DNA of 64,000 bases from Porphyra umbilicalis (Eukaryota; Rhodophyta; Bangiophyceae; Bangiales; Bangiaceae): positions 248,001 to 312,000 of the forward strand of contig KV918773.1 of NCBI GenBank assembly GCA_002049455.2, read 5' to 3'. Shown here piece after piece: positions 1,991-61,718 of this stretch. The position numbers were made by a program, and so were the translations under genes. Under the pieces are notes generated by a model, which saw nothing but the letters and a program-made list of their open reading frames with translations, did not search any database and was not told where the DNA came from. Positions within the stretch are counted from its first letter, which is position 1, and each line of letters starts with the position of its first letter.

Positions 1991-2062
1991 GTGGGGCGGC
2001 TCGCGTCGGGGGCTTGACGCCGCCGCAACCGCCGCCGCCAGTGCCGGTGGGCGCGTCGGCGC

Positions 2063-19450: not shown

Positions 19451-19484
19451 TCACCGCCGGAAACGGCGGTCGCTCGGCAGGGGG

Positions 19485-26831: not shown

Positions 26832-29177
26832 CTACTCCCTACCCGGCGAGTGCGGGCGGTCGTCGCGAACGTTCCCACCAAACTGGTCGTAACCCGAGTG
26901 GTCCGGGTACTCCTGGGCCGACCCCCGGTCCGAGGGGCCCGGCCCCCTCGACGAGCGCGGCAACCTACTCGGTGCCGCCCCCGCCGCGGCGTACCCTCCA
27001 ACAGTGGAGGGGTAGCCGCCCCCATGGTAGGGCGCGGCCGAGCCAGCAGGCTCCCCGGCGTACGAAGCCCGACTGGGGCCCCCGCCCGCCGAAGCCCCCG
27101 CGGGCCCAGCCGCCACCCGCTGGCCGTGCCCCTCCAAGCGGGAGGCCATCTGGTACCCGATGGCCTCCGAAGTGGTGTCCACCAGGAACTGCGCGGCTGC
27201 GACAGACCGGGGGGACGAGGAGTCCCGCAGTACGGACCCCGCCCCCCGGGTGACCCACGCCAGGGTATCTACCAGGGAGGCAACTATCGCCTCCCCATGG
27301 GCAGCCCACAGCGCCCCCGCCGCACTTGGGTAGGTGGTCGCCAAGGCGTGGGCGCACCGCGGGGTGACGTACCCCCAGCTGAGGCTCTGCCCCGCCCCAA
27401 GGGGCGGGTAGTACGGCACCCCCGGCGGGGCAAACGTCGGACGGCCCGACCGCCCCGCGGGGGATGCCCCTGCCCGGGTGGTCCGCCGGACAGCGCCCCC
27501 ACGAGCAGGGGGGCGCTCGGCAGTACCTCGGGTACGCTGGCGCTGCTGGGGGACACTGGCCCCCGGCGCACCCCAACCCGAGTTGGGCGGGGGCGACGTC
27601 GCCGTTACCCCCGCCGAGTAGGGGTAGGCCAGGTCACCCAGGCCCTCACGGAGGCCTATGCGCCCGGCTACCAGGCATTTGTCACAGTGGACAAACGCCC
27701 GAGGCGCCTCGCCCTCCTCCCCGATCACTCGGCGGGCTAGGTAGGGCCCGGCCGCCTCCCAGTCCAAGGACTGGTGAAGGTCCAGCAACTCGCTGAGGTA
27801 CGCGTGCGCGTTCGGGCCGGCCCCCTCCGCCACGTTGGCGAGGCGGAGCCCCACCAGACGCCCCACTATTGCGGCTGGCAGGTGCCAGAGGTACTCCTTA
27901 CTCCGAGCGGCGGCATACCACACCCCCACTACCTCAAGCACCCACTGGGTAGCGAGGATGGCCGCCGCCGGGGTAGCCTCCCCCCGACGGAGCGCAGTGC
28001 CAAAGTAGGCCACTATGCGCGGCATCCGGGCCGGGAACCCGAAGGGGACCTCCATGGCCGACCACCAGGACGGCGTCGGGACGTAGTATGCCCGCCGCGT
28101 CGAGGTGTGGACCTGGGAGCTCTCCACTTGAGAGGCCCGCACCAGGATGCCCGACGCCTCCCGCACCCGGCGTTCGGTGCGGGCGTCCTGGTGGTGAAAG
28201 TGGGGGTCCGTCTCCCCCAAGTACGGGGGGGAGCAACACGCCCACTCCCACGCCACGACGGGCGGCACGTCGTCGGCGGTGGCCCCGTCCATAACATTGG
28301 ACAGGCGCGCGGCCACGCGCTCCACCCACGGCGCGTCCCCCGCCTCCTGTAGGGCGGGGAGGTCCGTCGCCACCCCGGCAGGCAGTTCGTACTACACGGG
28401 GTGGCGCGCCAGCCAGCGCTGACAAGCCAGGCCCTGCTTGGGCAGCGGGATCGCGGAGTAAAGCGTCCGCAAGGGGCACTCCCTCATCTAACTGCGGGCA
28501 GCCGGGGGGGTTCACTGAACCAACGCCCCCGGCCCCGCAAGACCCGCCTCCTCCACTGCCGGGAGGCGCCCCCGGCGCGGCACCGGCGGGGGGGACTCCT
28601 GCTCCATGGGATCATCCCCCGCCTCGCCCGGCGCCGCCTCCACCGTTGGGGGAGTGGCCGGCCGGCTGGGCGGCAGCAACACGCGCGCCGCCGCCGAGCG
28701 GGGCCCGGCCGCGTCCTCCCCAGCCGACCGCGTCGGCGCGCTCGACGCGCGGGAGGCCGACGCCGACCCCGCGGTCGACTTGGACCGGCGGGGGGGAGGC
28801 GGCGGTTGGGTTGCTTGACTCCCCGCCGCCGAGCACTCCCGGCTTGGGGGCGCGGCGTTGGCCTGGCGCGCCCGGCGGGCTGCCTTGCCCCGGGACGCCG
28901 CCACGGCCGCGCCACTTGACTTGGTGGTGCCGGCCGGCGTGGCAGGTGCCGACGCCGCCGCCCCACCAACCCGCGGGGTGGCCGCCGTCGAGCCCTTGGC
29001 CTTGGGGGCGCCCATACTTCCCGGCGCCCCGCCCACCCGCGGGGACCCCGCCGCAGGGCTGCCCGACTTGGCCGTAGCCGACGCCGGCGTCCCACTCGGC
29101 GCCGGCGTGGCGCGCCCCGCACTTGGGGAAGCCATTTCCTCGGTCGGCGCCACTGCCGTCGACCGCGAGGAGGCCAT
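26832..29177 (-). pseudogene. Antisense ORF of element A (unknown protein), three in-frame stops
   Basis: One continuous frame on the strand opposite to gag-pol, from ATG 29177 (MASSRSTAVAPTEEMASP) to 26832, about 780 codons. It is broken only by TGA at 28512, TAG shortly after (about 28500) and TAG near 28392. There are no frame changes. The first 220 residues are Ala/Ser/Pro/Arg-rich and disordered. A globular part follows (about 28480-27620: MRECPLRTLYSAIPLPKQG, WEWACCSPPYLGETDPHF, MEVPFGFPARMPRIVAYF, ATQWVLEVVGVWYAAARS, FVHCDKCLVAGRIGLREGLG). Then comes a Gly/Pro/Arg-rich tail with a second helical part (TYPSAAGALWAAHGEAIVAS). The motif at 28002-28052 matches, without gaps, a motif in the antisense ORF of element C. 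I know no family for it. Its position between pol and the 3' LTR is shared by B and C. Confidence 0.65.
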
Positions 29178-29765
29178 AGCCGCCGCGCCCGGGTAGGGGG
29201 AACAGCGAGGGGGAGGGGGGTGCCCCGCGCACAGAGGGACGAGGGGGAGGCTCTCAACTCGAGTAGCGGTGGAGGGGAGGACGGTGACGGTCGGTAGTGG
29301 ACGGCGTCCCCGTCTGTCCCCCGCCTACCCCCTTTTTATGAGCCCCTGTGTGGGGACAGGGGCCCTTACCCCGGGCCCCCTCAGACCCACCCCGCGGGCC
29401 ACTCCCCCTGGACGACTCCCCACTGGGGGGGGGGGGGCCGCACGACAGCCCCCCAGGTGGGGGGGCGGGGGGGATGCCATACTGGGCACCTGCCCCCCTG
29501 TTGGCCCACCGGGCACGGTTAGCGGGCCCGCCCCGGACGCGCGGCAACACCCCTGGCCCCCGCTGCCGTGCCGACCGTACGGCGACGGCGCGTACCCCCT
29601 TGCCCCGGCGGGGGCGCCTCCACGATCCGGGGCAGCCATCGCTGGCGAGGACCGGGGCAGCACCCGGGCCTCACACTGGGGAGCCCGGCCGCTAGCTGTC
29701 CTGGCCCGCCCGCCACACTCGGGCGGGCCCCCCCCCCTGGCCCTAGGCCGCCGGGACGGCGACCC

Positions 29766-29781
29766 CTTTAGAAGGGGGAAC
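29766..29781 (+). promoter_or_regulatory. Polypurine tract of element A
   Basis: TTTAGAAGGGGGAAC immediately precedes the 3' LTR, the expected place and composition for the plus-strand primer. Confidence 0.75.
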
Positions 29782-30510
29782 TGTGGCGGTCCGTCACATG
29801 GCCCCCCACACTCCGGGAACCAGATTCCCCGGAAATATGCCCCACTAACGCATATTTCAAATTGTTCCGTTGGCGACCCACTTGTGATCATTTCGTGGCT
29901 CGCCAACCACAACCGCAATCCCAATACTTCCCTGGGATTCGTAACGCCCACGAGCGGGCCCCTACTTAAGAGCCTAATTTTGTGTAAACCCGACTTGGAT
30001 TATCGACTTAGGTTACTTTGCGCCCCTGACCCCGGGGCGCCGCGAGGGTGTCACGTAGCACCCTTCCCCCGCCTCTACTCAAGGCGGTATTCGAAGCTTC
30101 GGCCGTCCTTTGGGTTATGGGCCCAGTGGGCCCTGAGGAGAGGGCCTTTCGTTGGTCCTTTGAGGGTGTCTGAGGAGGGGTTTCCGAGGGTCCTTTGAGG
30201 GAGTCTGGGGAGGGTTTTCAGAGGGTCCTTTGAGGGTGTCTGAGGAGGGTTTTCCGAGGGTCCGAGGGGAACGGATGGGATAAGAGGGTGAGGCGTGAGT
30301 GTCGCCTCGAGGCCTACGACGCGGGCAAGTAAACTTCTGGTCACACAACTCGTGTTTGTCGCTCGGGGCGCCTTCCCCCGGTCGACGCCGTGCATGTGTG
30401 CTCTTCGTGGTTTCCTTCCGGGGCGGGTATTCCCCGACAGGACAACACGGTGACACGGTTTGGCTGGCCCTCCCCCCAACTGCGCGGGGTGGGCTGAGCG
30501 TGTTGTCACG
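29782..30510 (+). repeat. 3' LTR of element A
   Basis: 729 bp, begins TGTGGCGG and ends GTTGTCACG. The final G replaces the A of the 5' copy. It is followed by the target duplication GGCGC at 30511-30515. Confidence 0.93.
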
Positions 30511-31130
30511 GGCGCCGCCGTCCGGCGGGGCTGTGGGGATCGCGAGCAGTCCCACCGCCGCATGCCCGTCGGCCGCCGCCTACGCCGTCGTCGGCGGCGT
30601 TTGACGACGGGTAGCCGCCGCCGTTGCGGTGGCGACGGCAGCAATTACAACACGCCGATGGGTGGCTCGACGGGGGCGGGGGCGGCGGCGACAACGGGGG
30701 CGGAGTAGGCGGCGACAACGGGGGCGGGGCGGCGGCGACAACGGGGGCGGGGGCGGCGATGACAACGGGGGCGGGGCAGCGACGACAACGGCGGCGGGGG
30801 CGGCATCGACAACGGGGGTGGGGGCGGGGCCGCCAAGAGAGGAAGCCACCAGGGCGGGGGCGAGGGCGGCGGCGGCGGGATCGGGGGCTGCCACCATGGT
30901 GGCGCTGGCCGCGGCGATTAGGGCGGCGGCGGCTGCGGCGGCGGGGGCGGCAGCGGAGGAAACGGGGGCAGCGAGCGTGGGGGCGACGACAGTGACATGA
31001 AGGGTGGCGACTGTGAGGGTGGCGACGGTGGGGGTGGCGACGGTGGGGGGGGCGACGGTGGGGGTAACGACGGTGGGGGAAACGACGGTGGGGGAAACGA
31101 CGGTGGGGTGGCCACGGTGGAGGTGGCAAT
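30511..31130. repeat. G-rich simple repeats at the right flank of element A
   Basis: The first 95 bp are the continuation of the DNA that element A split. From about 30660 the sequence becomes GGGGGCGG/GACAACGGGGGCGG tandem words. From about 31000 it is a 15-bp array based on GGTGGGGGTGGCGAC. These runs could form G-quadruplexes. No credible gene is seen; long frames here are Gly/Arg- or Pro-rich artefacts. Confidence 0.6.
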
Positions 31131-32429
31131 CCGCCACCCCTCTTTCCAGCTCATCAGCGGACTGCACGCCATTGGGCGTCTTCTTGAGATCTCTCGTGCG
31201 AAGCTCTGCAGGCACCACAGCCACACGCGGACAGCCCGTCGGCCATAACATTTGGCAGAAATATCTGTACAGTCGCAGATTATGTGTGTTCTGTGTTAGG
31301 TCGAGGAGTTGGACGATCGATGAGTTGCTCATCGAGTATCCTGCTGCGCCAGCTTGGAGGCGTTCTCTGTTCTGTGCCAAGTCCATTGGTGGGGTCTGTC
31401 GCCGACGGCCCATCCCACGACGTCTCGCTCGACTTTGCGCCGCTCGAGAAGGTGTGACGTGGGCTTTCGCAGTGTGCAGGTAGAGAGGGGTGCCTTGCAC
31501 AGTCGGGGAACGGAACGGGCGTCCACTGCTGAATATTCCAGGAGATCGACACTCGCGACGCCCACCACACAAGGCACACGACCAATGAAAAATCAATGCT
31601 GCCTTTCACAGTCCGCAGATCCGCGCACAGCTGCACGCCGCCGACGGATGGCCATATTTGCAAGCCGCACATTACCGATTGCACGTTCGATCGGCTGGCA
31701 CGATGTCCTGCACGATGTGCTTTTATCAGGCACAGAGGCCCGAAATTAGGAGCTATAACTGCGACGAAATCAGCCGACCCGCCTCCGCGGGTTCAGTTAG
31801 GGGCTTCCGATTAGCGCTGCACGAAGTGGACACTGTGCAGCTCGCACGATGTCCTGCACGATGTCGAAACCGGGAATCTTAATGGAAACAAGTAGCCGGA
31901 TATTAAGATCTGGCCCACTTGGCCAAGACAATGGGCCATCAGACCGCTCGTCCTCCTCGATTCCGCAATCCCGGCCACGTGATGGGGGAGAGATATCCTT
32001 GCATTCGAACTTGTGTTGAGCTTTTCTGTAAGACATCGTGCGCTCCGTCGACAACGTGCCGCCTCTCACGGTGCCTATGAGAGGGGTCATTGTGCGTACG
32101 ATCCGCGGGGTGTCCATGTTTTGGGGAAGTGCCATAGCGGCTCTCATCGTTTTTTCGAAGAAAAAACACCATTGCACATCACCCACGATGTTTTGTGTCC
32201 TTCCTGACCAGCTGCGAAGATAGAACTTTGCTGCCGGGTACGCTTTCTTCACGCGTTTCCTCACTCGTGCAGTCTTGCCCATATTTGAGATGCATCGAGC
32301 ACATCTGGGCCAAACATGAGTAAAACACAACTTTCTTGGAGAGGATGACTTTAGGGTTCCCGAAGGGCGCAGATCACGGCTATGTCGGTCTTTTCCTGCG
32401 AAAATGCTTGTTTCAAACCGTTTCTGCCC
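31131..32429. other. Unassigned DNA of ordinary composition
   Basis: No gene is recognised. A minus-strand frame at about 32330-31800 (GKTARVRKRVKKAYPAAKFY, then FFFEKTMRAAMALPQNMDT) is non-repetitive but matches nothing I know. A 21-bp direct repeat (GCACGATGTCCTGCACGATG plus T) occurs at 31698-31718 and 31844-31864. Confidence 0.4.
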
Positions 32430-34430
32430 TCTGAAGACAAAACAGTCACCAGGCGGCGGCGGCGGCATGCAGGCGCGGAGGCGGCACAGGGCGGCGGCGA
32501 TGGCGGCCGGGGGTGGCTGCTGTAACAGAAAAGGGCAGCAGTGGCAGCAGGCGGCGACGGTGGCCGCGGCGCGCGGCGGCGGCGACATTCAAGGGCGGCC
32601 GTGGTAAAGGTTGGCAGCGGCGGCCGCCGGGGGCGGCGGCAACGGCGGCCGGGGGTGCCGGCCGCGGCGGCCGGTACCAGCGAAGGCAGCGCGCGGTGGT
32701 AGTGGCGGCAGCAGCTGGGGACATCGGCGGCAGCGAGCGCCATTAGAGGCATGCAGGGGCGGTGGCTACATGGGGCGGCGGCGGCCGCCGCCGCGGCGGG
32801 CTGCTGGGGGCGGTGCGGCAGCCGCCACGGGCGGCGGCGGCAGCCGCTGGGGGCGTTGGTGGCATTCGCTGGGGGGGGCGGCGGCGGCGGATGGTGGTGG
32901 CGACAGCACGGGGCGGCGGCTGTCGCGGCAGAAGCCGGGGGCGGCTGCGCAAGCGGCTGGGGGTGGCGGCGGCGGTGGCCGGGTGGGCGGCGGCAGCGGC
33001 CCAGGGCGCCGGCGGCAGCGGCCGGGGGCGGCAGGAGCCGCCGGGAGCGGGGGCAGTGGCCGGGGGCGGCGGCGACAGCCGCCTGGGGCGGCGGCGGTAG
33101 CGGCTCAGGGCGGCGGTGGCAGCGGCCGGAGGCGAACTCGGCGGCGGCCGTTGGCGGTAAAGGCACGGGGCGGCGGCATTCATGGCAGCGGCTGGGGGCG
33201 GCGGCGGACGGGAGAGACGGCGGCGGCATGCAGGAGTGGCGGCGGACTGGGGCAGTGGCGGTGGCGGATGGGAGCGGCGGCGGCGGCATTCAAGGACTGT
33301 GGCTGCAGAGGGCGGCGTCGGCTGCCCTCGAGGACGGCGGTGGCAACAGCCCGGGGCGGCTACGTGAGCGGCCGACAACGACAGCGGCGGCGGCCGGAAG
33401 CGGCCGCGGCGGCGACAAGAGGCAGCGGCGGCGGCGGACGATGTCGAAGACGGCAGAGGGCAGCCGCGGTGGAGGCAGCAGCCGGGGCGGCGGCAGCGGC
33501 TAAGGGCTGCGGTTGCAGCCGCCAGGGGCGGCGGCAGAAGCCGCCGGGGGACGGGGCGACGGTGGTCGTGGGCAGCAGCCGTAGCGGCCCGGGGCGGCGG
33601 TGGCGGCTGGGGGCGGCAGTGGCGAGCAGAAGCGGTGGCAGCAAGAGGCATCGGCGGCGGCGGGATGCAGGGACGACGGCGGCAGGGGGCGGCCACGGCG
33701 GCCACGGCGGCCGGCGGTGGCGGCAGCCGGGGACGGCGACTGTGGCGGTCGGGGGCAGCGGCGGCTGCGGCCAGGGGCGGCGGCGGAAACAGCTGGGAGC
33801 AGTGTCGGCGGCGACCAGGAGGGCGGGCGGTGGTAGAAAGGGGCGGCGGCGGCAGCAGGCGGTGCCGACGGCGGCGGAGACTCGGGGTGGTGGCGGCGCC
33901 AGCCAGGGGCGGCGGCGGCGGCAACCCGGGGCGGCGGCGACGCCAGGCAGGGGCGGCGGCGGCTGGGGGCAGCAAGGGAAGAGGTTGTAGCCCGAGGTGG
34001 CGGCGGCGGTGGCCGGGGGCGGTGGTGGCGGCGATGAAATCCGGGGAGGGCGGCGCTGGCAGACAGGGGCGGCGGCGGCGGCCGCCAGGCACGGCGTCAG
34101 CCGGGGGCGGCAGCCCGCGGCGGCACCAGTTGGGGGTGGTGGCGGCCAGGGGCGGTGACAAGGGTAGCCAGAGGGGACGGCGGCGGCACCCGGCGCTGCC
34201 GAGAGCCGGGGGCGGGGGTGGCTGGGGGGGGCGGTGGTGGCTTTGAAATGCGGCTGTGGCAGCCGGGGGCGGCGGCGGCGGCAGCCTGGATCGGCCGCGT
34301 TGCGGGGGCGGCGGCAACCAGAGGAGCATGAATCGGGGGATGAAGGCAGCGGGGGATGGCGGCAACCGGTACGAGGGGGGCAGCGAGGTGCAGCGGCCGC
34401 CGCTGCGGGGGCGGCGGCAGGCATACACGC
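32430..34430. repeat. 2-kb GGC/GCC cryptic simple-repeat tract
   Basis: About two kilobases made almost wholly of GGCGGC, GGCAGC, GGGGCGGC and similar words, irregularly interrupted. Every frame is open for long distances on both strands (up to about 620 codons on the minus strand), giving Gly/Arg/Ala- or Pro/Pro/Leu-rich strings. I see no domain and call it repeat, not gene. Confidence 0.75.
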
Positions 34431-37400: not shown

Positions 37401-37470
37401 TCACGACTCACGCGGAATGGTGCCGTCGGAATCCTTCCCCTTTTTCGGGAATGGCCCCATCAGACGCGGG
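34431..37470. other. Unassigned intergenic DNA with a diverged direct repeat
   Basis: No protein is recognised. Two related stretches of about 65 bp (near 34815-34880 and 35290-35360) share GCATC/CCCCCATCC and TGGCCTGCATCTCA words, suggesting an old duplication. An AATAAA lies at about 35407. Short frames from 35400 to 37300 show no domain. Confidence 0.35.
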
Positions 37471-39045
37471 CTGCTCTGACACACGAGTCAGCACATGACA
37501 GCAATGAGCTCCCCATCGCTCTTTCTGGCCCCCAACGTCGTGAAGCCGGGCCCATCCGCCAATCTGGCTGGTCTCCCACTGGCGGGCGTGCCATGGGTCA
37601 CACGTCCCGTTTGATTGTTCAGAGCGCGGAGGCCGGCCCGTCGGCCAATCTTGGCTGACGGCCGAGTGCGAGGTGGACAGAGACCAGATGATCTCCTCCT
37701 GCGCGCTGTTTTGGGACGATGGCAAGTCCATTGCGAAATCATCGGGAATCGCAGCACATTTTGATCCTGCTCTGATCCCTGAACAATGGCCCGACGGTCG
37801 AGATCATGGGCCCGTTCTCGGTCGCTCAAAATCGCATTCGGAAATTTGTGACGAGCCGGGCGCATATGTCGACCGGACGACGGCGTCGCCGATCCAGTCG
37901 ACGCCGCGACCGCGAACTGCTACCCCACCCCCCCCCCCCCCCGCCCTCCTCCCCCCCCACCGCCGCCACCGCGATCCGCGCCCCCCCCCCCCCCCCCCCC
38001 CGCCCCCCCCCCTGCCCACCGCTGCCATCGCGATCCGCGCCCCCCCTCCCCACCGCCGCCGTCGAGGACGCCGTCGGCGCCGCGGCCTCCCCATTCTTCA
38101 AGCGCTCGTCACCGCTGTTGTTGCTCTCTTCTGGCGTCCTCTCTGTTTTGCTCGTTTTTTATTGTCCTCTGGCTTGTTCACGTGGCTGTTCATATGTCGC
38201 CTGAAGAAGTAAATTACTCTCGCTGTTTTTTCTTTGTTTGCCACCTCGTCTTGGAGCTTTTGCTATAGGACCCACAGCGGAGTCCCCGCAATTGAGTGCA
38301 TCGCACCTTTGTCGACAACGTTCCTCATGGCCCGTTCCAAAATGCACGTAACAATCTCGCTGAAAGCAACTGGGGGATGCGCCCTCGGACCAGTACGGAG
38401 AGGCCACAAACAATAACGCGAGCCCATTTAATCCCGAGACAACAACACAGCATACGAAAGGCAAAAGAGAACACCGACAAGGCAGCCACAGCGGTGATCG
38501 GCACAAATGGGCGAGGGCGGCAAAGCGGCGCGGGCTGCGGACCGGGCGACTGCGGTGTGCGGGGGGGGGGGGGCAGGGGGGGGGGGGGGGGGTAGCAGAT
38601 CGCGGTCGCGACGTCGACTGGATCGGCGACGCCGTCGTCCGGTCGACATATGCGCCCGGCTCGTCACAAATTTCCGAATGCGATTTTGAGCGACCGAGAA
38701 CGGGCCCATGATCTCGACCGTCGGGCCATTGTTCAGGGATCAGAGCAGGATCAAAATGTGCTGCGATTCCCGATGATTTCGCAATGGACTTGCCATCGTC
38801 CCAAAACAGCGCGCAGGAGGAGATCATCTGGTCTCTGTCCACCTCGCACTCGGCCGTCAGCCAAGATTGGCCGACGGGCCGGCCTCCGCGCTCTGAACAA
38901 TCAAACGGGACGTGTGACCCATGGCACGCCCGCCAGTGGGAGACCAGCCAGATTGGCGGATGGGCCCGGCTTCACGACGTTGGGGGCCAGAAAGAGCGAT
39001 GGAGGGCTCATTGCTGTCATGTGCTGCCTCGTGTGTCTGAGCACC
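37471..39045. mobile_element. Foldback element with inverted arms of about 460 bp
   Basis: The left arm (about 37471-37935) returns almost unchanged as the reverse complement at about 38570-39045. For example, CACGAGTCAGCACATGACAG on the left pairs with the right copy near 39010-39035, and CGTCGTCCGGTCGACATATG at 38633-38652 is the complement of 37862-37881. The arms end inward in a poly-C tract (about 37922-38020) and a poly-G tract (about 38558-38592). The 600-bp centre has no ORF. The long arms and lack of coding sequence suggest a non-autonomous foldback or Mutator-like element. I could not define the outer ends or a target duplication. Confidence 0.75.
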
Positions 39046-40086
39046 CGAAGTCGTTGAGCAGAAAAGCGCCTTTGAGAAATGTTCGTTGACACGTCACTGG
39101 TTCTCAGCCTCGTTTACTCGAAACGAGGAATATATGGGGGGTACTTTCGATCTCGGCTGAGTGCTAGGTTTATTGTGGATCGACTGTAAGGCGCATGAGC
39201 GCGACTCACATGGGCGCGCACAGAGCTCGGCAATGGAACGAGCATTGGCGCTCCGCATAGATGCATCCTGGAGCCTACTTCATCAGAAATTTTATGACAC
39301 ACTTTCAGGCGGCTGCGACCATACGCTCGAGAGATAGACGTGTTTCCATTCATCCCACCGTTGTCTTGAACGTCTTTTTGTCGATTAAATGGCCCGCTCA
39401 TAACGCTGCAGGCGGTAACTCGACATGGCTAGGCAACAAAATGCGTGTCATCGGTGCTGCGGGGAAGTCTGGACGACATGTGTTGCCGTTGGTCAACATG
39501 GGCGGTGGTGGTGGGGGGCAGGTGATGCTCGTCGCCGGCCGAGAGAAAGTGCATTTCCATGGGATGCCAGATCGGATCAATACGTGTCTTGCATCAGAAA
39601 TTTGTCAGAGCTTGTTCCGGATCGGCGGAGACCAAGAAAATGGCGCAATTCTGGAGGGACAGAGAAACACCCAGATGTATCTCAGCGCTACAAAATCTTT
39701 TAAGCGCCTAGTTTTTTTTTCCTTGAGTGCCCATGCCACGGAGATCAGGTCTGTTTACTTTTCGTGGTCGAAAAAAAATCTAGAACAGCAGGGAACTTCC
39801 TTTCCTCATGTGCCGAGAAGCACGGAATAGACCTTCAGTCGCCAGCCTCTGGTTGTCAATCCCTATTGTTCGAATTTCCATGCGGCCTTGCATTTAAATG
39901 CCGACCACATTCCATCCGGAACGGGCCGACCGCTGCTGTAAAAAACCCTCTCCAGCCGAGCGTTCAGTACTGAGGCGACCTGATTGTGATTTGCTTTGAA
40001 CTACAGTGCTCTGAGGCGCTGCAATCGGCCCACACGCCGATATTTCCTTACACAATCGATGGGGTTCCCTTCTGGATGGGATACTA
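39046..40086. other. Unassigned DNA
   Basis: I see no recognisable gene. A 189-codon plus-strand frame at 39261-39830 is non-repetitive but lacks any domain I know and is more likely chance than a gene. Confidence 0.35.
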
Positions 40087-41600: not shown

Positions 41601-41607
41601 TATATAA
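41601..41607 (+). promoter_or_regulatory. TATA box of the pogo-like transposase
   Basis: TATATAA lies about 180 bp upstream of ATG 41784 and is followed by a C- and A-rich leader. This is the clearest core-promoter-like motif in the window. Confidence 0.5.
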
Positions 41608-49589: not shown

Positions 49590-49595
49590 AATAAA
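49590..49595 (+). terminator. Possible polyadenylation signal of the alanine-rich gene
   Basis: AATAAA within an A-rich run, about 395 bp after the stop codon. Position and sequence fit a polyadenylation signal; use is unproven. Confidence 0.35.
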
Positions 49596-49599
49596 CACA

Positions 49600-50837: not shown

Positions 50838-50959
50838 TAGTGTCTATTCTACCATGAGTGCGACTCAGTTGAGCCATCCCTTTGACTCATTTGAGTCTCA
50901 ACAGAAATCGTCGATCCCAGCGTTCCTACATATGAGAATGGCCGATTTGGTGCCTATGA

Positions 50960-53900
50960 GAGCACACCCAACAACGTCGGTTGCGAACGATCTGCGAACC
51001 GTTTAAGAGCGCAACGTGTGCGCCTATGAGTGGCCAAAAGCGTTTCGGCAGCGATATGCGCAGGCTCTGCGAACCCGCTCCGCTCGGATCGAGAGTACTT
51101 GTTTTCTTCTGTCGGCAGATCGCAGTGTATGGGAAACGGAGAAGGTGACGTTGCTGGGTTGTCGACCTGCGAACTGGTGCCTGCGAGCGGCTTTCCCGTG
51201 AGATGTCCACATTCCGACAGTCCAGTGCTACATTTCAAGCAAACAGGCCATCGATCGACCTCGCGATCACGCTGATCTGGACCCCAATCGTCAGCAAATA
51301 AGACGGTCAAGTGAGACACGCAGCGCGATAGGCTTCAAATGGCTGCAAACTCTTGCGATCGAGTAGACACGACGTGGTCAAACGCACAAATGTCGGAGAC
51401 ACGTTGGCAGTATCTCGCATCATCTTGCGGCGCTGTCGCATCTCGCGACCGAGAGCAGTGATTTGTAGGTCTCTCATTGGTCCGTTCAGCCGGCAGACGT
51501 ACAGCGTGCATGCAATCTGGTGGCGCTTTCGCCTCGATGGACACTGGAGCATTCTTGTTCTGAAGCGCCTGTGAGGCGGCCGCGTGGTGTCTGCCTCTGA
51601 GGCGGCCGCGTGGTGTCCGCCAGTCACCGTGACGCAGGGCGGGCTCCCACGCGGCCGCCTGCGGCGGTCGGGTGGCCGGGCTTGCGAGTCTGCCGAGACC
51701 CGGCAGGGGTCACGTACGATAGCGCCCGTCGCGCAGCGGCAGAATCGTGCGGCCACATCCGATTTTCGTGTCAGCGATCCGCATGCTCATTGGTCAGACG
51801 CGCTGTTCATATGCATCCAGCCGGACACACCCTGCTGCTGTCCAGTGCAAGACTGCGCAAGGCCAAAGCAGCGTAGTCACGCCTCGCGTCCCTCTTGACA
51901 ACGACGGCGCTGTCTGTATTGGGCACCTCTGCGGCCGCTAATGCGGCCGCTGAGGCGACGGCGGCTGCGGCCGCAGGTGGGGCTCCAGGTGCGGCCGCAT
52001 CGCCCGTATGTGCGGCTTCTGCATGTGCCGGTGCGGCCGCGTCTCCTGGGTCTGGCGGACCGCCCGCTACGCCCGGCGTCGTGGCTGTGAACGGCCGCGA
52101 AGCGGCCGCGTCGGCGTCGACCACGGGCCGTACGGTCGAGTCCCCGGCGTCCGGCGCGGCCGCGAGTGCGGCCGCATGGCTTCCGTCTGCACCTTTTCCC
52201 AGTGGCGGCTCCCATGCGTCGCCGTGTGCCTGCGCATCACCAGCTGCGGTCGCCAGCGCGGCCGTTGCCCGCCGCGCTGCGGCTTCGGCTGGTGTTTAAT
52301 CTGTCAAGCGGAGGAAGGCGCGCGGCTTGAACTCGCTGCAGACCAAGCATGCCCCTTCACAGCTGGCGGGGACTCCGTCCCAGGTCCAAGTCGCTTCGTG
52401 ACGCCGCGGCCGCAGAATGCGGCCGCTGGCGCTTCGGGCGACGACGAGTGGGACGCTTCCTGTGGCACTAGTGGCAGCGATGTCGCGGATGGTGACTTGC
52501 CTTGAGTTGTGACTCTTTTAATTGGCGAGACGGAGTCCTCTCTGCGCGTTGAGTGTTCGGCTTGTGTACCACAATAATACACGTTTTTTTTTCCCTTTGC
52601 CGGTTTTTTTTTTCCTACTCTCTGACTCTGTCCGACTCACCGACTCTGTCCGAGAAGCCAGCACGGCACGATCCCTTCATTTATGCATCAGTTACATTGC
52701 AGCATGATATTATACGAAGCTCGCGGACATCCGCCCACGCCAGACAGAGCGGTGGCCTCGCCTGTCTTTCCAGAGAAGTGGAAGCCGCCCATGAGTCTTA
52801 ACTATCCTAAGTCGACGTGGCGGCCGCGGCCAACGTGCAAAAATGTGAGGAAAAAATGCCATGACGGCGAAAAAAACAACCGTTGAAGACTACACATACG
52901 GCTCCGCAAGGGACCCGCGATCAGAGGATATATGGGCTGCCAGGTCTTCGCGAAGAGATCTCCTCCTCGATAGGAGGCCGTCGGTACACAGGTTCCCCCT
53001 CCTCAGCGATGAACTCAACCAGCTTCTTTGTCGCCACGTCAGTTGTGAAATTGGACAGCCGAACATACTCATCCGCGCGATAAAACGACCCCCCGTACGC
53101 GGCCACACAGAAAGCGGCCACCAGCTTCTGCAGAACATGAGCTCGTGGCCGCCTCGTCGCATTGATGCTCTGCCGCCCACACGGCCTGTCGCAAATGGCC
53201 TCGTAAACGCTCATAAACAGAGACCGTGGCACACGGAAGCGACGCTCAAACGTCTCTTCTCCATACACAGGCGGCTGCCCATCCACACCAAAATAATCCC
53301 GCATGATGCCGCGCATACCCTGGTCGAAATCACGTGGCCGGTTGGCACGCCGCCCGGCCACAGACCCGACAAAACGCCGTCTGCGCGCTCCCTGCGCCGC
53401 ATTCCTGCGATGGCGGCGCGTCAGGAACAGAGATCGCGCTCCGATGACGGCCGCAAGCAGCTCGTCCGCGGAGCCCTCCGACTGCCCGCGGCCGTCATCG
53501 CTCGACGGCCCAGACCCATCATCAGTGGACGCGTCCATCTCCATCCACAAGTGCAGCCGACGTCAGGAGAGCTAGAGCGGCCGCAGAAGCGGCCGCAAAT
53601 GCGGCCGTCAATACGGCCGCTCACGGCCGCTCACGGCCGCTGCGCCGGCGAAGGAGACGGGCAGAACGGGGAAACGGGATGGACGACGCCGACGACGGCG
53701 GTGCCGCAATCGCGCTCCCCCCGACGACGACGGTGTGATCGACGCGCCGCTGGTGGCGGGCGCACCGCGTCGATCTGTCGCTCCGCCCCCCCCCCCCACA
53801 GAAAGCGCAATTGGCAGGTCCAGGGCGGCCGCGTGACCAATAATGTGGGCTGCGCGGCGCTGCCTGAAAACCCCCATGCACGGCCCATTCCCGCCGGTGC

Positions 53901-54645
53901 GGCTGCGCGCGGACAGTCACATGCCGGCCACACAATGTTGCGCTGCGCGGAACCCCCCCCGATTGGCTCCCAGCGCAGGTTGGTGGCACCAGCAGCGCGT
54001 CAACTGGGGGCCACCCCGCCAAAGAATTCCGCTGCACGACCGCATTGGGGCCGCGCGCCAACCCATGCGACAGTGCCTCTAGGCGCCCCCCCCCCCCTAA
54101 TCAAACAGTTCAGCCGTGGGGGGGCCGACCCAGAATCGCGCGTGGCGGCGGATGTCCACCAGGAAAAAACGGTGTCCCGCCGGCCCCCCCCCCCACAGGG
54201 CCCGGCAATGAGCGCCGCCTGCGCCTCGAACGGAATCTGCGGCCACTCGCGACGGCATGCTCATAAATATCAGATCTCGAGACGCCTGTGCGATCGTCAA
54301 CGCAACGTGTGTTTGTCTGCGATCGTCCCGATTTGGGTGTTTGACCCCCGTTTAGACACAATTGTAGACAGATTCAGTTCGCAAAACGTTCGGAAATGCA
54401 CAAACGTCTGCCCAAACGCCAGTGGTATGGTCGGCCGATGGAAAAATGCGAACCTCCTGCGAACCAGCGCCATATTATCCGGTTGGACTTATATCTGGCC
54501 CACCAGTAGCTCGGTTCGCAGATCTGGTTCGCGACGTTGGTGGGATGACCGGTTTTCCCATACCTCTGCCCATAACTGGCAAATATGCCACGTTTAACGA
54601 ATAATACGCAAAAGCGGTTCGCAACCGACGTTGTTGGGTGTGCTC
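50960..54645 (-). mobile_element. PIF/Harbinger element D2, inverted copy of D1
   Basis: A 3,686-bp copy of D1 in the opposite orientation. Its ends are GAGCACACCCAACAACG with the matching inverted end. It is flanked by a 3-bp duplication TGA (50957-50959 and 54646-54648), which differs from the TAA of D1. Sequence identity to D1 is very high over the stretches I compared, so both copies are recent. Confidence 0.93.
52921..53544 (-). CDS. Truncated PIF/Harbinger transposase (N-terminal half), D2
   Basis: The same 207-residue truncated transposase as in D1, read on the minus strand from ATG 53544. It differs by a few residues: a Ser-to-Pro near the start, Phe-to-Val in the Arg-rich stretch, Asn-to-Tyr before the ADEYVRLSN motif, and a different last two residues. 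The DDE core is again absent. Persistence of the open frame in two copies may reflect recent amplification and not selection. Confidence 0.72.
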   Translation of the reverse strand: MEMDASTDDGSGPSSDDGRGQSEGSADELLAAVIGARSLFLTRRHRRNAAQGARRRRFVGSVAGRRANRPRDFDQGMRGIMRDYFGVDGQPPVYGEETFERRFRVPRSLFMSVYEAICDRPCGRQSINATRRPRAHVLQKLVAAFCVAAYGGSFYRADEYVRLSNFTTDVATKKLVEFIAEEGEPVYRRPPIEEEISSRRPGSPYIL

Positions 54646-55590
54646 TGAACTGACGTCGATGCGCTTCCAGAGAAAACTAGGGGGTGCCAAATCACCGGCT
54701 CCAGCTCCACGGAAGGGCAACCCCCTCAGCCCGATGTCTACAGAAAGAAACAGTCTTGAACGCACCAGGAAAGCCTATTTTGATGGGTCCGACGTCGACC
54801 CTCCGCTCCCCCCCCCCACCAGATGGCGAGAAAACGGCGATTTCATCTTGCAAATGCCAGTGCACCGAGCCCTGTCGACCTCGCCGGTGACCCTTTGCTC
54901 TCGCTCCCTGCAGTGGATAATAGCCACCGCGGGCTTGGACGGCTGTTGGTACACCCTGCTGATACTCTGAACACTACAGGAACTGGCAGCACCTCGACCA
55001 GTGGTGGATTGAGTGGCCCTAAAACAGAGGGTGGTGGACGCCACAGGCCAGCCTTCGTCCCGCTCCGCCCCTCTCCCCTCACCGTAAATGACCTCCCCTT
55101 TTGTTCCCAATCTCTTGTCTCTGGGGCTCTCAGACCGCCCTCATGGTGTTGCTCGCCTTTTAGGACCACCTGTCCCCCCCTGCCTGCATTCGTGCTCGCT
55201 GCCCCTGGAAGGGAAACCACAACGTAGGAGGTTGAGAAGATGTGGGAAACAGGCTCATCTGTAGATGCTGCGTGGTCCGTGAGTCTGCCTGGAGTGTTTC
55301 CGAGCTTCAGGGACGGGGGCACAGCAGAAAGTGACGAACTGGAGACAGCCTGCTGCCCTCAAGGCGGACGCCCTGGACGCTGAAAAAGTTGACGCTTCCA
55401 TCCGTCCTGAGGAAAATTGACTGTGCGCTAAAGCTCGGGTGGTTCGCCCAAGACTAAACAGCCACCGCTGAGTCTATTTCCGTCGTCAGAAACGGCGTCT
55501 GACGAACTGTTCGTTCACGAGAGACCTCTCAAAATGCGACTCAATTGAGTCTTTGCGACCCAATTGAGCTATCTGGTAGAATAGACACTA

Positions 55591-57400
55591 GGACGGTTCA
55601 ATAGACGTCGAAACGGGCACGACGCGGCGGCGGGCGTTTCGAGGGCACACTTAATGCTTTCGAGGGGGGCTATCTCGCAACATTAACTACATGTCACTGT
55701 CGCATAGTTGTAACAAAATTATATGAGACGTCATGCTGCTGCAGTAGATCCGACTGTCTTGTGCCAACTAGGAACCAAAACGTAACCGGTTTCAGGGGGG
55801 ACGTGCTCGCTACAGGGGAGCGTTCAATAAGGTCGCTGCGCTGTGGTGGTTAAAGATAGGTCACACGCAAGCCCGATTTTGCTCGATTCTCAGGTCCGCA
55901 GCGACTGCGGGAGCATCCGCAAGCAAGTCCGTTTCGCAGAAATATGCGGTTGAAGCAGCAATGCGGCCGTGTTCGACCAAAGTGGATGGAGCCACGAAGT
56001 TAAAGCAAATGATATCTCCCAATCGAGCCGATGCTGATAGCTGCAGTCAGCCAATGAAAGAGTACCGACACAGGGTCTATCCGCCAATGAAGAGCTCCAA
56101 TTAAGACAAATCTGCGGTGACGAGTTTTGACATCCGACCGTTTTCTCTGGGTCTGCCAAGAGGCAGCACGAGCACGTCCGTCATTGACAACTATTGACAA
56201 CAGCCTCGGAGAGTGAAGTGGCCAGCGATGCCTGTACCGGGTGTGGAGAGCTGGGCGCTGATGGCGCCGACGTCGTGGCGGTTGACGGTTTGGGAGCCGA
56301 CGACAACGCCCACGTCACCAGTTGTGTGGGCGCTGGTGGCTGTACCAGGCGCAGAGGTGAGGGCGCTGATGGCGCCGACGTTGTGGCGGATGACGGCGTG
56401 GGTGCCAATAACGACGTGGACAGGCGTGAAGTTTGGCTCCCGTATCAGGGCGAGCACGGGGAGGACGTCGCAGTGAACAGCGGCACCTCCGCCGTGGGCG
56501 ACGACGTGCCCGTCGCATGTTGGGGCCTTTGCGTGGCAAAGTGAGTGGCGCACCACAGCCTGCAGCGGTGTGGCGGGGCGTAGTGGGGAAAGGCTCTGAT
56601 GTAGACCAGTAGTTACGGTTCTGGTGCTGTGGTCCTCGATGTGGCGTCGCGGGACTTGGCATCGTAGGGCACCAGGGAGTGTACCAGGGAGTGGACGGGC
56701 ATGGCGGGGCGTGGTTGGCAGTCAGCTTGTGTCTCCTCGGCGTCAAAGGTCACCGCCATCTTCTTCTCGGCTTAGTGTGATGGCACAAGGGGAGATTGCC
56801 TTACCCAGCCAGTTTGCACAGCCCCGGGCGATCAATTGTGGACAGCTGCCGCATGTCTCTGCGCAGGGAGGCGCGACAGACTTTTGCGCTTGCCTCGTGA
56901 AGCGCACAGTGGAGTGATTCCGCGCTCGCCATGCCCGAAGCTAATCGACTTGCATTCAGACGCTTCGGGAGATGTAAGGACAGTTATGACGGGTTCCAGA
57001 AAACACATAACGCAGCCATTTGAGGTTAAATAGGTCGAAAACGGTAGAGTATGGTGTCGTGCTGGGGGGGTCCGCAACATCTTGCGGTCAAAAATCGATG
57101 AATCCGCCGGTTGCGTGCGACCCCACTTTAAGCACCACAGCGCTGCGATACGGGGGTTCAGCGTGCGGTGACCGACTGCCTGCGCCAAAGCGGGGGTGAG
57201 CACGAGCAGCTCTGCTCACGAGACAACCGCACCTCAACAACCACCACGGCGCCGCCGCCCGTGTGAGGGACACACCGTCTGTGTCCTATCGCGCACCTCG
57301 CGTTGTTACTTCGTTGTCACGCGCAGCGCTCGACGCGAGCGTGCTTCTTGCACAGCTTCTAGCGTGCCGCTCTTGTGAATTTCTCGTTGCTCCACGCGCC
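55591..57400. other. Unassigned DNA with a two-unit tandem repeat
   Basis: No gene is recognised. At about 56225-56450 an approximately 112-bp unit containing GGCGCTGATGGCGCCGACG occurs twice. On the minus strand it would encode a repeated HNVGAISALTSAPGT / HDVGAISAQLSTPGT block. The rest holds short frames only. Confidence 0.45.
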
Positions 57401-57429
57401 GGGTGTGTGTGTCTGTGCTCTATCGAGCA

Positions 57430-58296
57430 ATGGTGTCTGCACGCCGAGAGGAGATTCGTCGCCTCCGGGCGCTTCTGAAGCGGGCGACCTTTGTAGTCGC
57501 GTTGCAGCACTCGGGCACAGTTTCACCGCGATGTGTCTTTGCTGAGTTGGGGATGCTGTTGGTTGCGGCGCGCACACACCAGCGCCTCACTCACCTGCTG
57601 GTGACTCGGTACATGCTCTCCCGTCGCAATCGCGTTCCCAATTCTGGGGACTGGAGAGATAGGGTGCTGCACGCACTGTCACCCTTGTACTTTCGCGCGC
57701 ATCTGCGTGTAGAGGCGAGCACGTTTGAGTACCTTGTGTCTTCTTTGGACTTGACGGCGTCTGATAGTTTTTTAAACGCAGTCCGGACGGCCGCAACTGT
57801 CCGTCCGTATACAGCTCGCAATTGCTCTGTTTCAGTTGGGCCACTATGGCAACGCGGCGTCTGGTTTAGTCGTGGCTCAGCGCTTCGCGGCTTCCCCAAG
57901 AGCTGTAGTCAATGCGACCAAGCGGGTTTTGTCGGCCATTGTGCGTTGGGAGGCCGACGATATCCGTTGGCCGACTGCTGCCGAGCGCCAAGCGCATGCG
58001 CGGCAGTCTGAGGAGAGGTTTGGGTTTAGGGGGTGCATTGGGGCGGTTGATGGCACTACCATTCCTTTTGCGTACGCCCCTAGCGTTGACCCGTAGTGTT
58101 TTTTCGACAGGCACAAGCGCTATAGCGTTAATGTACTGATCTCTTGTGATTGGGACCTACGAATCACGAGCGTGGTGCAAGGCTTTACGGGCGCGGTGCC
58201 TGACACGGTGGTGCAAGCAGCTGCCCCATGGCATATTTACTCAGATTGGTACTTCTCCCCTGGCCAGTACCCTCTGGGTGACAAGGGTATGCTGGG
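57430..58296 (+). pseudogene. Harbinger (HARBI1/DDE_Tnp_4-like) transposase, truncated by element C
   Basis: From ATG 57430 (MVSARREEIRRLRALL) the frame reads through AHLRVEASTFEYLVSSLDL. It shifts once near 57830 into LGHYGNAASGLVVAQRFAAS and then GFRGCIGAVDGTTIPFAY, which carries the first catalytic Asp near 58053. After TAG 58094-58096 the same frame continues as CFFDRHKRYSVNVLISCDWD and YPLGDKGM, with the second catalytic Asp near 58281. The last catalytic acidic residue is missing because the LTR of element C begins at 58297. The order and motifs are those of PIF/Harbinger nucleases. It belongs to a different Harbinger lineage from D1/D2, judging by its N-terminal half. Confidence 0.8.
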
Positions 58297-58662
58297 TGTG
58301 GCAACAAAGAAGGCGCGAACAAATACCCTAGAACCATACTGACAGTACAAAAGAGAAGGACCTAAAGGGTCAACCTACCGAGAGGACCTAGGCGGCGCAA
58401 AGGCGCTCAAAGGCTAGGACTCGAGAGGGACGCCAAGATTTAGATGGCGAGCAAGACGGGGCGGCGCGGGGCAAGGCCGGCGCCGTAATAACAAGACGAA
58501 AACAGACGAAAAGTAGAGACGTAAGAGTAGCCCCTGGCCCGAATAGGGGGGCTACTTAGGGAGGGACAGCCGTCCCACAGGCCGCAATCCGAAGTACGGA
58601 GAGACAGGCGCAAGTCCCGGCAGGGTCAGAAGTACTGGACTTAGCCCCTGCCGAATGCAACA
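58297..58662 (-). repeat. 3' LTR of element C
   Basis: Read on the minus strand it begins TGTTGCATTC directly after the purine tract GAGGGGGG (58663-58670) and ends TTGTTGCCACA, giving TGTTGC/GCCACA inverted ends and 366 bp. The left boundary coincides with the abrupt end of Harbinger transposase similarity. The second LTR is outside the window, so the limits are inferred. Confidence 0.6.
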
Positions 58663-58739
58663 CCCCCCTCGGGCCAAGACCTGGCGGTCACCCGCCAGCA
58701 AGGACAGATGCGGGGCCGCTCGGGCCGAGCAGCCGCGCG

Positions 58740-59110
58740 GAGGTCGCCAGCGCGAGGGCGCAGGGCGGGGCCACCGGGCGACGCAGGCCGCGTGGGGGCG
58801 CGCGCGCGGGCAGCACGCGGCGGCAAGCGGCGCCAGCGCGCGGGCGCAGGGCGGGGCCACCAGGCGACGCGGGCCGCGTGGGGGCGCGCGCGCGGGCAGC
58901 ACGCGGCGGCGAGCGGCGCCAGCGCGCGGGCGCAGGGCGGGGCCACTAGGCGACGCGGGCCGCGTGGGGGCCCGCGCGCGGGCAGCACGCGGCGGCGGAG
59001 GCGGCACGCGCGGACGCAGGGCGGGGCCACCAGGCGACGCGGGCCGCGTGGGGGCGCGCGCGCGGGCAGCACGCGGCGGCGAGAGGCGCCAGCGCGGACA
59101 TACCGCCGTG
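58740..59110. repeat. About 84-bp tandem repeat in element C
   Basis: Four to five units containing GCGCAGGGCGGGGCCACCAG, GCGACGCGGGCCGCGTGGGG and GCAGCACGCGGCGGCGAG. They lie between the LTR and the start of the antisense ORF. Open frames here are artefacts of composition. Confidence 0.75.
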
Positions 59111-59312
59111 CGGGGACCGGCGGGGGCAGCGTTGAAGAACGCGGGGTGCCGGCGGCGGGGGGCGGCACGCGCGGACGCCATCGGCGTGGGCGTGCTGCGG
59201 GTTTTCCGCTCGGGCGGACGTTGTTGCCGACGGAGGCGGACGACGCGGTCGGCGGCGGCGGAGGCGGCACACGCGGACGCCACCGGCGTGGGCGTGCTGC
59301 CGACTTGGTCGG

Positions 59313-61718
59313 ATGGCGTCGACCGGGAAAGCGGCGGCGATGGCCTACATCGCGCCTTCTTTGCGGGACGCGTTGAGGGCGGGGCTGCGGCGGTATGCCG
59401 AGTGCGTATTGGCGGACCACGACGAGGTGCCGGAGCGGGAGCGGGTGCCGGGGTCAGACCCGCGGAACCAGCCGGCGGTCGAGCGCATGCAGGCCGGCGT
59501 ACGCATGGCGTCCTGGCACGGCGGCATCCACGAGGTGCACTCGCAGCGGTGCGATGGCGAGTTGGCCGTCCGGTTCAGCCGCGAGGTGGCGCGCTTCGGG
59601 ACGGCGTTGCCGTCGTGGTTCGTCCGGACGGCGTACGCCTTCTTGAGGGTGAACGAGAACGAGACTGTCCTCCGCGAGTGGGTGCCGTGGGTGGCGCACT
59701 GCTGGGGCCGCCTGATGAGCCTCATGCCGGACGCGGTGACCCCACCGGCGGAGTACCTGACGGAGTTGTCGCTTCCGTATCTACGGACGTCGGCGGACTT
59801 CGGGTACGTGCAGGCCGCCGAAGCGCAGAGCCGGGAGGCGATGGACGCGGCGGCGTACTACTACGAAGAGGCGGCGGACAAGAACGCCCGTCGTGTGGAC
59901 GCGGGGGCGGCGCCACGGGCGGTCCTGCCGTACGAGTTCCCGGCCATCAGCTCCTGGCCGAAACCCGAGCGGGTTGGGCGGGATCTGACGCTCCATGTGG
60001 CGGAGGGCGACCGCGTGGCGGTAAACCAAGCGCGGAAGGAGGTGGACGTTCGGGCGCGCAAGGGCAACGACGTCCCGTACCTGATGACGGCCGGCCACCA
60101 TGCCAAGGGCTTGTACCGAGCCGGCTGGCGGCGCGTGCCGGAGGCGCTGGGCGAGTTGGAGCTGCCGCGGGGGCTGCAGGTGGCGTACCCCACCGTGCTG
60201 TCGTATTTTTACGACCGCATGATGGGGGACGACCGCAGCTGCCTGTGGGACATTTACGTGGTGGAGCGCGTGCAGCTCACCGCCATCGCGCTGCTGGCGG
60301 ACCTCGCCGGCGGGCGGGTCCACCGCATCTCCCCAGCCCTTCTCCACCGGCTGGAGCGTCTCCGGCTGGACGACATGGCGGCGGGGAGTGCGGACGAGCA
60401 CGCCCGGCTGCAGCGGCTGCTCCAAGGCATGGCGGTGCTGCTCCCCAAATGGGGAGACGTGGTGGCGGCTGCGGGTTTGCCGCTCGGGCAGACGCCGTTG
60501 CCGACGGAGGCGGACGACGCGGCGAACCCATACGGTTTTCGACTAGCGTTGGACGCTAGGGGCGTCGATTTCCCAAGTCGGGCCGAGCGCGCGACGTCGC
60601 AGAGCTCCACGGCACGGGGGCCGCCGGGGGCGTCCGGGGACGTGGGGGCGGGGCCCACCCGGGGCGGGGACAGCGACGCGGCCCGGGAGGACGCGGCGGC
60701 GGCAGGCTCGGGATCGCCGTCATGGCGGGCCGTGTCGCCGTCGCGGTCGTCGCCGAGGGGGCGTGCCCGGGACGACGCCCAGTGGGTGCCTTCGCGGTCC
60801 CCGTCGCGGTCGTCGCCGAGGGGGCGTGCCCGGGACGACGCCCAGTGGGTGCCGTCGCGGTCCCCGTCGGCGTCGGCGTCGGCAACGCGGACACGATCGC
60901 CCGTTCGGGGGTCGTCGCGTCGGGCGACGAAGTCGCGCCGGACACCGCCGCCGGGACGCGGGACGCCTCGCCCTCGGCGCGGGCCGACGCCGGGACGGGC
61001 AACGCCGCCGCCGGCGGCGTCGCAACGGAGTGGCGCGGCGGGGGAAGCCGCGGGAGGTAGCCGGCGGTCGTGGTCACCGCCAGCGGCGTCGACGCGCCGG
61101 CGGCAGCCGCCGGCGTCCGATGGAGCGTCAGGGCGGGCGGAGGGCGGCGCGGCGGCGCCCCGACCGGGCGACGCGCGGCGCGGCCGGTCGCCGGTCGGCG
61201 CCGATGGGGCGGCCCGGTCGACGGCGGGGGCAACCGGGTCGCGGCGGAGCGGGGGGACCACGCGGCGGAAACGCCCGAGGTCGTCCGAGGGGCAGGAGGT
61301 GGAGCCCCCCTACGCGGCGCACCACAAGTGGTACCGCGTGGGGTCCATTGCGCCTGAGCGCGACGCTCTCCGGGCGCACCTTTCGGCGGCGGCCGTGAAG
61401 CGCTCAGCCGCGGCGGGCGGCGCGCCGGCTGGCGCCGTGGGGCTGGCGATCAGCCGGGTGCTGCGTAGTGGCGTGGACCGGCTGCACGCGTCCCTGCGGA
61501 CGTCCAGCGACCGCACGATGGGGAAGGCGATGGACGGCGTCGTCAAGGTCGTCAAAGAACTCCGCCGCGCGTCGCACCTGGAGGACGACATTGGTCGTAT
61601 CCTGGACGAAGTGCGGGCGGCGGACCGCGTGGCCTCTGCTGACGAGCGGTTCGTCTATGACGACAGCGACGAGTCGGGGGGCGAGCGTCCCACGGGTCCT
61701 CGGCAGCGGCACCGCTAA
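59313..61718 (+). CDS. Antisense ORF of element C (unknown protein with RS-rich region)
   Basis: An intact 801-residue ORF from ATG 59313 (MASTGKAAAMAYIAPSL), on the strand opposite to element C pol. Residues about 1-400 look globular and helical (PSWFVRTAYAFLRVNENE, WVPWVAHCWGRLMSLMP, DVPYLMTAGHHAKGLYRAGW, LELPRGLQVAYPTVLSYF, LWDIYVVERVQLTAIALLAD). Residues about 420-650 are disordered and rich in Ser-Arg. They include a perfect 21-residue tandem duplication (63-nt unit near 60737-60862) that resembles an RS domain. The last 140 residues are again helical (LRAHLSAAAVKRSA, VDRLHASLRTSSDRTM, VVKVVKELRRASH), ending in an acidic tail. The motif near 60159-60210 matches element A's antisense ORF without gaps. 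The stop TAA overlaps the pol stop on the other strand. I know no family; an RNA-binding accessory role is a hypothesis. No membrane segment is seen. Confidence 0.7.
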   Translation: MASTGKAAAMAYIAPSLRDALRAGLRRYAECVLADHDEVPERERVPGSDPRNQPAVERMQAGVRMASWHGGIHEVHSQRCDGELAVRFSREVARFGTALPSWFVRTAYAFLRVNENETVLREWVPWVAHCWGRLMSLMPDAVTPPAEYLTELSLPYLRTSADFGYVQAAEAQSREAMDAAAYYYEEAADKNARRVDAGAAPRAVLPYEFPAISSWPKPERVGRDLTLHVAEGDRVAVNQARKEVDVRARKGNDVPYLMTAGHHAKGLYRAGWRRVPEALGELELPRGLQVAYPTVLSYFYDRMMGDDRSCLWDIYVVERVQLTAIALLADLAGGRVHRISPALLHRLERLRLDDMAAGSADEHARLQRLLQGMAVLLPKWGDVVAAAGLPLGQTPLPTEADDAANPYGFRLALDARGVDFPSRAERATSQSSTARGPPGASGDVGAGPTRGGDSDAAREDAAAAGSGSPSWRAVSPSRSSPRGRARDDAQWVPSRSPSRSSPRGRARDDAQWVPSRSPSASASATRTRSPVRGSSRRATKSRRTPPPGRGTPRPRRGPTPGRATPPPAASQRSGAAGEAAGGSRRSWSPPAASTRRRQPPASDGASGRAEGGAAAPRPGDARRGRSPVGADGAARSTAGATGSRRSGGTTRRKRPRSSEGQEVEPPYAAHHKWYRVGSIAPERDALRAHLSAAAVKRSAAAGGAPAGAVGLAISRVLRSGVDRLHASLRTSSDRTMGKAMDGVVKVVKELRRASHLEDDIGRILDEVRAADRVASADERFVYDDSDESGGERPTGPRQRHR

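Follow-up and report, generated by a model that had tools for sequence, protein, structure and literature searches.

LTR (long terminal repeat) retrotransposons with an open reading frame (ORF) on the strand opposite to pol, between pol and the 3' LTR, include Grande, RIRE2, Retand, PvRetro13 and Boty, according to the accessible part of one account (PMC7264820). As far as the available literature goes, such antisense genes, of unknown role, have been reported from elements of flowering plants and from a single fungal element. Maize Grande carries gene23, an antisense accessory gene in this position, which in the accessible text is transcribed from its own upstream promoter and has a nuclear product (PMC7264820). 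In Retand, 97% of clusters have the TRP28 domain, by the available part of a second source (PMC11963269). The present analysis concerns a stretch of 64,000 nucleotides (the window) from contig KV918773.1 of Porphyra umbilicalis, in which three Ty3 elements, named A, B and C, each carry a long antisense frame downstream of pol.

An antisense gene convergent with pol in several Ty3 families

In this genome a group of Ty3 elements, several of them with a chromodomain, has a third protein gene, which is antisense and convergent to pol. In each of the three window elements the antisense frame lies between pol and the 3' LTR, as the first-pass annotation had noted (Table 1); the ORFs of A and B fall within mapped LTR pairs, and that of C falls inside its element end. 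The frame of C is intact, and its stop codon overlaps the stop codon of pol at 61715-61718. By contrast, the frame of A contains three in-frame stops and that of B one stop and a frame change, so both are decayed copies. The ATG of the window copy also begins the frame in two other copies of A, L042 and L044, where it stays open over 781 amino acids. For element B, an ORF from 19450 to 15706 had been proposed; the antisense frame is real, but the start at 19450 belongs to a 263-residue ORF in another frame, and the frame supported by the relative L071 runs from 19691 to 15987.

How far does this layout extend in the genome? Four further families are represented by A2 (L070, 44% identity to A), A3 (L069, 37% identity to A), a relative of B (L071/L072, 36% identity to B) and D (L073, with a pol 53-54% identical to that of C). 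Each of the four has a long antisense ORF that points towards the 3' end of pol; that of D runs off the fetched stretch. The retention first noted in three elements is broader than claimed, since at least seven families in the 84-Mb genome show the antisense layout (for four of these, a single locus was read), but it does not extend to intact frames in the window copies of A and B.

All genomic searches cover these 84 Mb, and the match counts are lower bounds. The globular part of the A protein has at least 145 matches (by hand count, 100 at 55-100% identity, 15 at 39-44% and 30 at 33-37%), and 22 of the 30 in the most distant class have no internal stop. At least 52 matches were found for the globular part of C and at least 117 for the B part (43 at 63-100% and 74 at 28-37% identity), the best 18 of the latter all being free of internal stops. 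For placement relative to pol, same-strand fragments within 2,500 bases were merged; 36 D-type matches (38-41% identity) of 128 and two C143 fragments of 137 were dropped beforehand. The coordinates of 37 C, 101 A-like and 89 B-like pol loci were compared with those of 45, 130 and 111 ORF loci, respectively. A pol of the same group lies within 8 kb of 33 C, 78 A-like and 66 B-like ORF loci. Of these 177 loci, 176 are convergent with pol, one is divergent and none is on the same strand, which bears out the expectation that homologues lie antisense and 3' of pol. Counted from the other side, a convergent ORF occurs within 8 kb of 33/37 C, 77/101 A-like and 66/89 B-like pol loci; one B pol locus has an ORF on the same strand.

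Around 91 of 98 pol loci of family D, the A, B and C queries found no ORF within 8 kb; of the other seven loci, one is convergent with such an ORF, three lie on the same strand and three are divergent. D was considered as a family without the antisense ORF and this was ruled out by the ORF at L073; the A, B and C queries merely fail to reach D. These D loci (e.g., G000:C204:119854-120630), at least 98 in number, mostly have an open pol frame and nearly equal scores, and the family has apparently expanded recently.

Is the antisense protein itself maintained? The ratio of nonsynonymous to synonymous substitution rates (dN/dS) was estimated from disjoint pairs of copies over the globular part only, using 29/30 A loci and 30/30 C loci (the incomplete L064 was omitted); the loci were the best-scoring copies and not a random sample. 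In the antisense frame of A, dN/dS was 0.59 (9 pairs), and 0.35 for pairs over 6% divergence (10 pairs); in that of C it was 0.57 (13 pairs) and 0.55 (6 pairs). Each time the antisense frame had the lowest value of the six frames. In the A pairs over 6% divergence, 365 changes fall at third codon positions, compared with 159 and 162 at the other two. A mutation-context null, in which all changes were reassigned at random among sites sharing their trinucleotide context in 200 replicates, gave mean values of 0.81-0.94, and in each of the four tests 0/200 replicates were as low as observed. Thus, the dN/dS check proposed for these frames gave 0.35-0.59 in families A and C, below the null in all four tests: purifying selection on the protein keeps the antisense gene in these two families.

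The lengths of the frames point the same way. In each of five regions, with a guanine-plus-cytosine (GC) content of 0.66-0.76, the length of the antisense frame was reached in 0/300 first-order Markov (Markov-1) sequences, although for element C the margin over chance is thin (860 versus a random maximum of 842). The homologues, the convergent layout and dN/dS together support the view, already taken in the first-pass annotation, of a real accessory protein encoded by the element.

The antisense proteins and an upstream TATA-like site

Protein searches covered 5.8 billion proteins, with scoring confined to the candidates that had most words in common with the query. They returned at least 70 homologues for the A3 protein (L069), at least 11 for the C protein and at least 68 with the A profile, none of which has a Pfam domain or a name; viral contigs searched with the D protein gave no match. 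Homologues in other elements or proteins therefore exist, as shown by the genome matches and by all three of these searches. Between families, an ungapped match of MEVPFGFPARMPRIVAYF in A to LELPRGLQVAYPTVLSYF in C had been noted in the first-pass annotation. It is present, and its register was recovered by profile-profile alignments that were blind to it. The A-like profile scores 40.6 against C (best of 100 column shuffles, 31.3; reversed, 22.6), and the globular parts of A and C score 33.3 versus at best 26.6 in 60 shuffles. The C-D score is marginal (29.2 versus 27.5 in 50 shuffles), and the A-B alignment is collinear despite a score below shuffles. These sequence comparisons support a single protein superfamily that includes A and C, with D and B as possible members.

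A common plan of globular part, disordered basic linker and helical C-terminal part had been attributed to all three window proteins. A basic linker is found in A, A3, C and D, with a peak net charge per 40 residues of +11, +7, +12 and +10, respectively, and in mild form in A2 (+5). In the relative of B, however, the linker is near neutral, and the helical parts are predicted by low-confidence models, apart from one hairpin at the C-terminus of the A3 protein (residues 481-540, block pLDDT (predicted local distance difference test) 71-81).

Upstream of the A antisense ATG lies a TATA-like CATAAAA (Table 1). Within the 1500 bases upstream, 24/30 A loci have the shorter CATAAA, 21 of them at 530-553 from the locus start; it stands at 466 in L064, a later-starting locus, and elsewhere in L047 and L066. 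A match to the TATA pattern arose in 14/2000 random gaps. A scan for bacterial promoters, a method unsuited to a eukaryote, found 0.

Possible functions and alternative explanations

What could such a protein do for the element? It is proposed, tentatively and with considerable doubt, that the antisense gene has a promoter of its own and encodes an accessory protein, one that probably binds nucleic acids and regulates the transcription or RNA of the element itself. The promoter would lie between the 3' LTR and the ORF. Its product is predicted to have a mostly helical globular part, a disordered linker that is usually Arg-rich and a helical C-terminal hairpin, which may oligomerise. By analogy, the protein could act in the manner of Grande gene23, of retroviral antisense factors or of Rev-type factors, with no kinship to them implied. 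The regulator role is a guess from the position of the gene, the charge of the linker and the nuclear product of Grande. The antisense gene of human T-cell leukaemia virus type 1 (HTLV-1) is named HBZ. The available part of one source describes the HTLV-1 gene as having a nuclear product (PMC11963269), and the analogy here is one of position only.

Several observations weigh against this proposal. The first-pass annotation knew of no family matching these proteins, and none was found in Pfam, NCBIfam, PDB, fold or TRP28 searches: Pfam gave stray matches only over 73 members (best E 0.05, each in 1-2/73), NCBIfam nothing for four antisense proteins, and PDB sequences no match better than E 0.4. 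Both AlphaFold2 models are poor (mean pLDDT 37 and 45), and Foldseek with the second found nothing at E<=0.001 in PDB or BFVD, a weak negative given the poor model. The linker of the B relative is not basic, and high GC favours Arg, so that the charge of the other linkers is weak evidence. Profile scores do not exceed those of shuffles for A-B (22.0 versus 23.2), C-B (22.5 versus 24.4), A-D (19.2 versus 23.7) or B-D (21.8 versus 22.6), and the probability that HHalign itself assigns to A-C is low (9.5-28%). For 109/286 ORF loci no pol of the same group was found within 8 kb, which contig ends, fragments and pol copies below the scoring limit could possibly explain. Finally, for the B, C and A3 (L069) ORFs, the upstream stretches that were searched lack the TATA pattern; in A, the windows around CATAAAA differ from L044 by ~10-13%, more than most of the ORF does, and its retention in 24/30 loci is thus modest evidence.

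Alternatively, the antisense product might be built into the virus-like particle as a second Gag-like factor, with a structural or packaging role. The order of the parts, mostly as read from low-confidence models, would fit such a protein, with helices, then a basic stretch that binds nucleic acid, and a tail for oligomerisation. However, a gag candidate is present in element A, its zinc-knuckle match being weak (E=0.0055, below the cut-off), and no similarity links the antisense family to this candidate: hhalign of antisense A6 with it gave 17 columns at E=0.2, and zf-CCHC is not listed for the antisense proteins in the Pfam scan. A structural role is unlikely, if still credible.

A role against silencing has about the same low standing. 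Here the product would be a suppressor of host silencing, or the locus would be an antisense RNA system that tunes the element by double-stranded RNA, with the protein secondary. The genes are tail to tail and their stop codons overlap in C, and the 3' ends would overlap if transcripts pass the stops; double-stranded RNA is also discussed, in the accessible part of PMC7264820, as a role of antisense ORF transcripts in plants. Because the codons of the antisense protein are under selection, RNA alone is insufficient as an explanation, which is no argument against a suppressor protein.

It is very improbable that the gene was captured from the host, or that an unrelated nested element came to lie antisense by accident. 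The lack of a known domain would allow such an origin, but the gene occupies the same place relative to pol in seven families, four of them single-locus readings. That the frames are an artefact of GC-rich DNA, in which long open frames are expected and then spread by copying, can practically be dismissed: such DNA is found here and long spurious frames are common in the window, but the dN/dS values refute this for A and C through the context null, and the codon-position bias, the mostly uninterrupted matches at 33-37% identity, the homologues elsewhere and the frame lengths speak against it as well.

The window elements and their described relatives

Table 1. Features of elements A, B and C in the window
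Feature	Position	Strand	Remarks
A 5' LTR	2062-2790		96.3% identical to 3' LTR
B 5' LTR	6240-6824		99.5% identical to 3' LTR
B pol (reverse transcriptase, RNase H, integrase)	9342..13724	+	protease match below cut-off
B antisense protein, C-terminus	15706..16914	-	another frame in window copy; matches L071
B antisense frame	15987..19691	-	one stop at 18513-18515; frame backed by relative L071
B 3' LTR	19491..20075	+	pairs with 6240-6824
A pol 3' end (integrase C-terminal part, chromodomain-like tail)	25585..26694	+	stop at 26505; end 26694 hand-counted
A antisense frame	26832..29177	-	ATG at 29177; three in-frame stops 28514-28392
A antisense protein, globular part (query)	27591..28391	-	
TATA-like CATAAAA	29334..29340	-	163 bp upstream of A antisense ATG, 441 bp inside LTR boundary
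A 3' LTR	29781..30509	+	pairs with 2062-2790
C 3' LTR, outer end	58297..58480		TG at 58297; at least 184 bp
C antisense ORF	59313..61718	+	801 amino acids, intact; tail-to-tail with minus-strand pol
C pol 3' part with chromodomain	61715..63043	-	Chromo E=3.4e-4, 20.9 bits, under curated cut-off 25.1
C pol integrase part (H2C2, rve)	62926..63999	-	open at window edge

The host is a photosynthetic eukaryote, as PF00504 (light-harvesting proteins) has 10 matches in the genome, every one over the cut-off. Element A encloses element B. A chromodomain follows the integrase in the pol of D (29.2 bits, over the cut-off) and, under the cut-off, in those of C, A2 and A3 (E 3.4e-4, 7.9e-5 and 6e-4). The portion of A pol past its stop resembles the A2 chromodomain by eye; in B pol no Chromo match was found at E<=1e-3. 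The pol proteins of C and D extend ~215-235 residues beyond the chromodomain (61715-62470 on the minus strand; L073:705-1355); by eye these tails resemble each other, and Pfam gave no convincing match to either.

Element C lies on the minus strand. At its end the shared sequence starts with TGTGGC or a one-base variant in 29/30 loci (27 exact), and by eye the flanks before it seem to have nothing in common; in L011 a repeat of that end shifts the start. A 184-bp query from this end, for which 40 candidates were scored, recurs in pairs in 12 contig regions, with a spacing of 9.7-10.0 kb in 11 of them and of 7.7 kb in the other, as is usual for LTRs. No 5' LTR partner of the window copy is among the matches listed for this query. 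Directly upstream of the C antisense ORF, 86-bp tandem repeats occupy 58740-59096, and part of that stretch is missing from several copies. The C end is adjoined by a 1157-bp unit (57141-58297) with at least 19 other matches, at 90-95% identity and nearly all full-length; this unit could be a solo LTR or some non-autonomous element. The window also contains a 3.7-kb repeat in two copies of opposite orientation that are 99% identical (22174-25860, within element A, and 50959-54646); its ORFs at 22609-23958 and 52861-54597 have no Pfam match. A foldback at 37469-39046 has arms of 502 bp that are 96% complementary, with a spacer of 574 bp.

How do the antisense genes compare with those already described? 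Chromodomain Ty3 elements of algae are known from Chlamyvir of green algae, the group formed by algal chromoviruses, and the accessible parts of its accounts mention no antisense gene (PMC6317226, PMC3350952, PMC10675990); no description of one in algal chromoviruses was found in the open literature, as far as it is accessible. The likeness to Grande gene23 is one of position, and so is that to the Boty antisense ORF of Botrytis and Sclerotinia, which belongs to a fungal element.

Retand elements are non-chromoviruses of flowering plants, and their antisense ORFs carry TRP28 (Transposase_28, PF04195), unlike the proteins here. PF04195 is listed for 0/73 members, in a scan whose HMMER filters drop most matches above E ~0.1, and not for the L071, window B or L073 proteins; a genome search with it gave 0 matches, with controls that included no plant. 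Tandem repeats are found in the antisense-ORF region of about half of Retand elements, by the available text (PMC11963269); likewise, an array of ~57/115-bp GC-rich tandem repeats lies between pol and the antisense ORF of element B (13796-15578).

It is conceivable, though improbable to a greater degree than the structural or silencing roles, that the antisense gene is the standard third gene of a whole algal chromovirus lineage, so old that similarity between families is nearly lost, and that it possibly goes back to a common ancestor with the Retand TRP28 gene, at a distance that sequence comparison does not reach. If such ancestry were true, a convergent antisense regulator would be ancestral to the Ty3 elements of the green lineage. 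Many copies are open, and their function is directly testable if the host can be grown. The gene is of a known kind, in a lineage where none was found described, and its protein family has no known relative. The presence of a many-copy antisense gene, under selection and without TRP28, in chromodomain elements of a photosynthetic eukaryote suggests that this plan either has more than one origin or is of great age.
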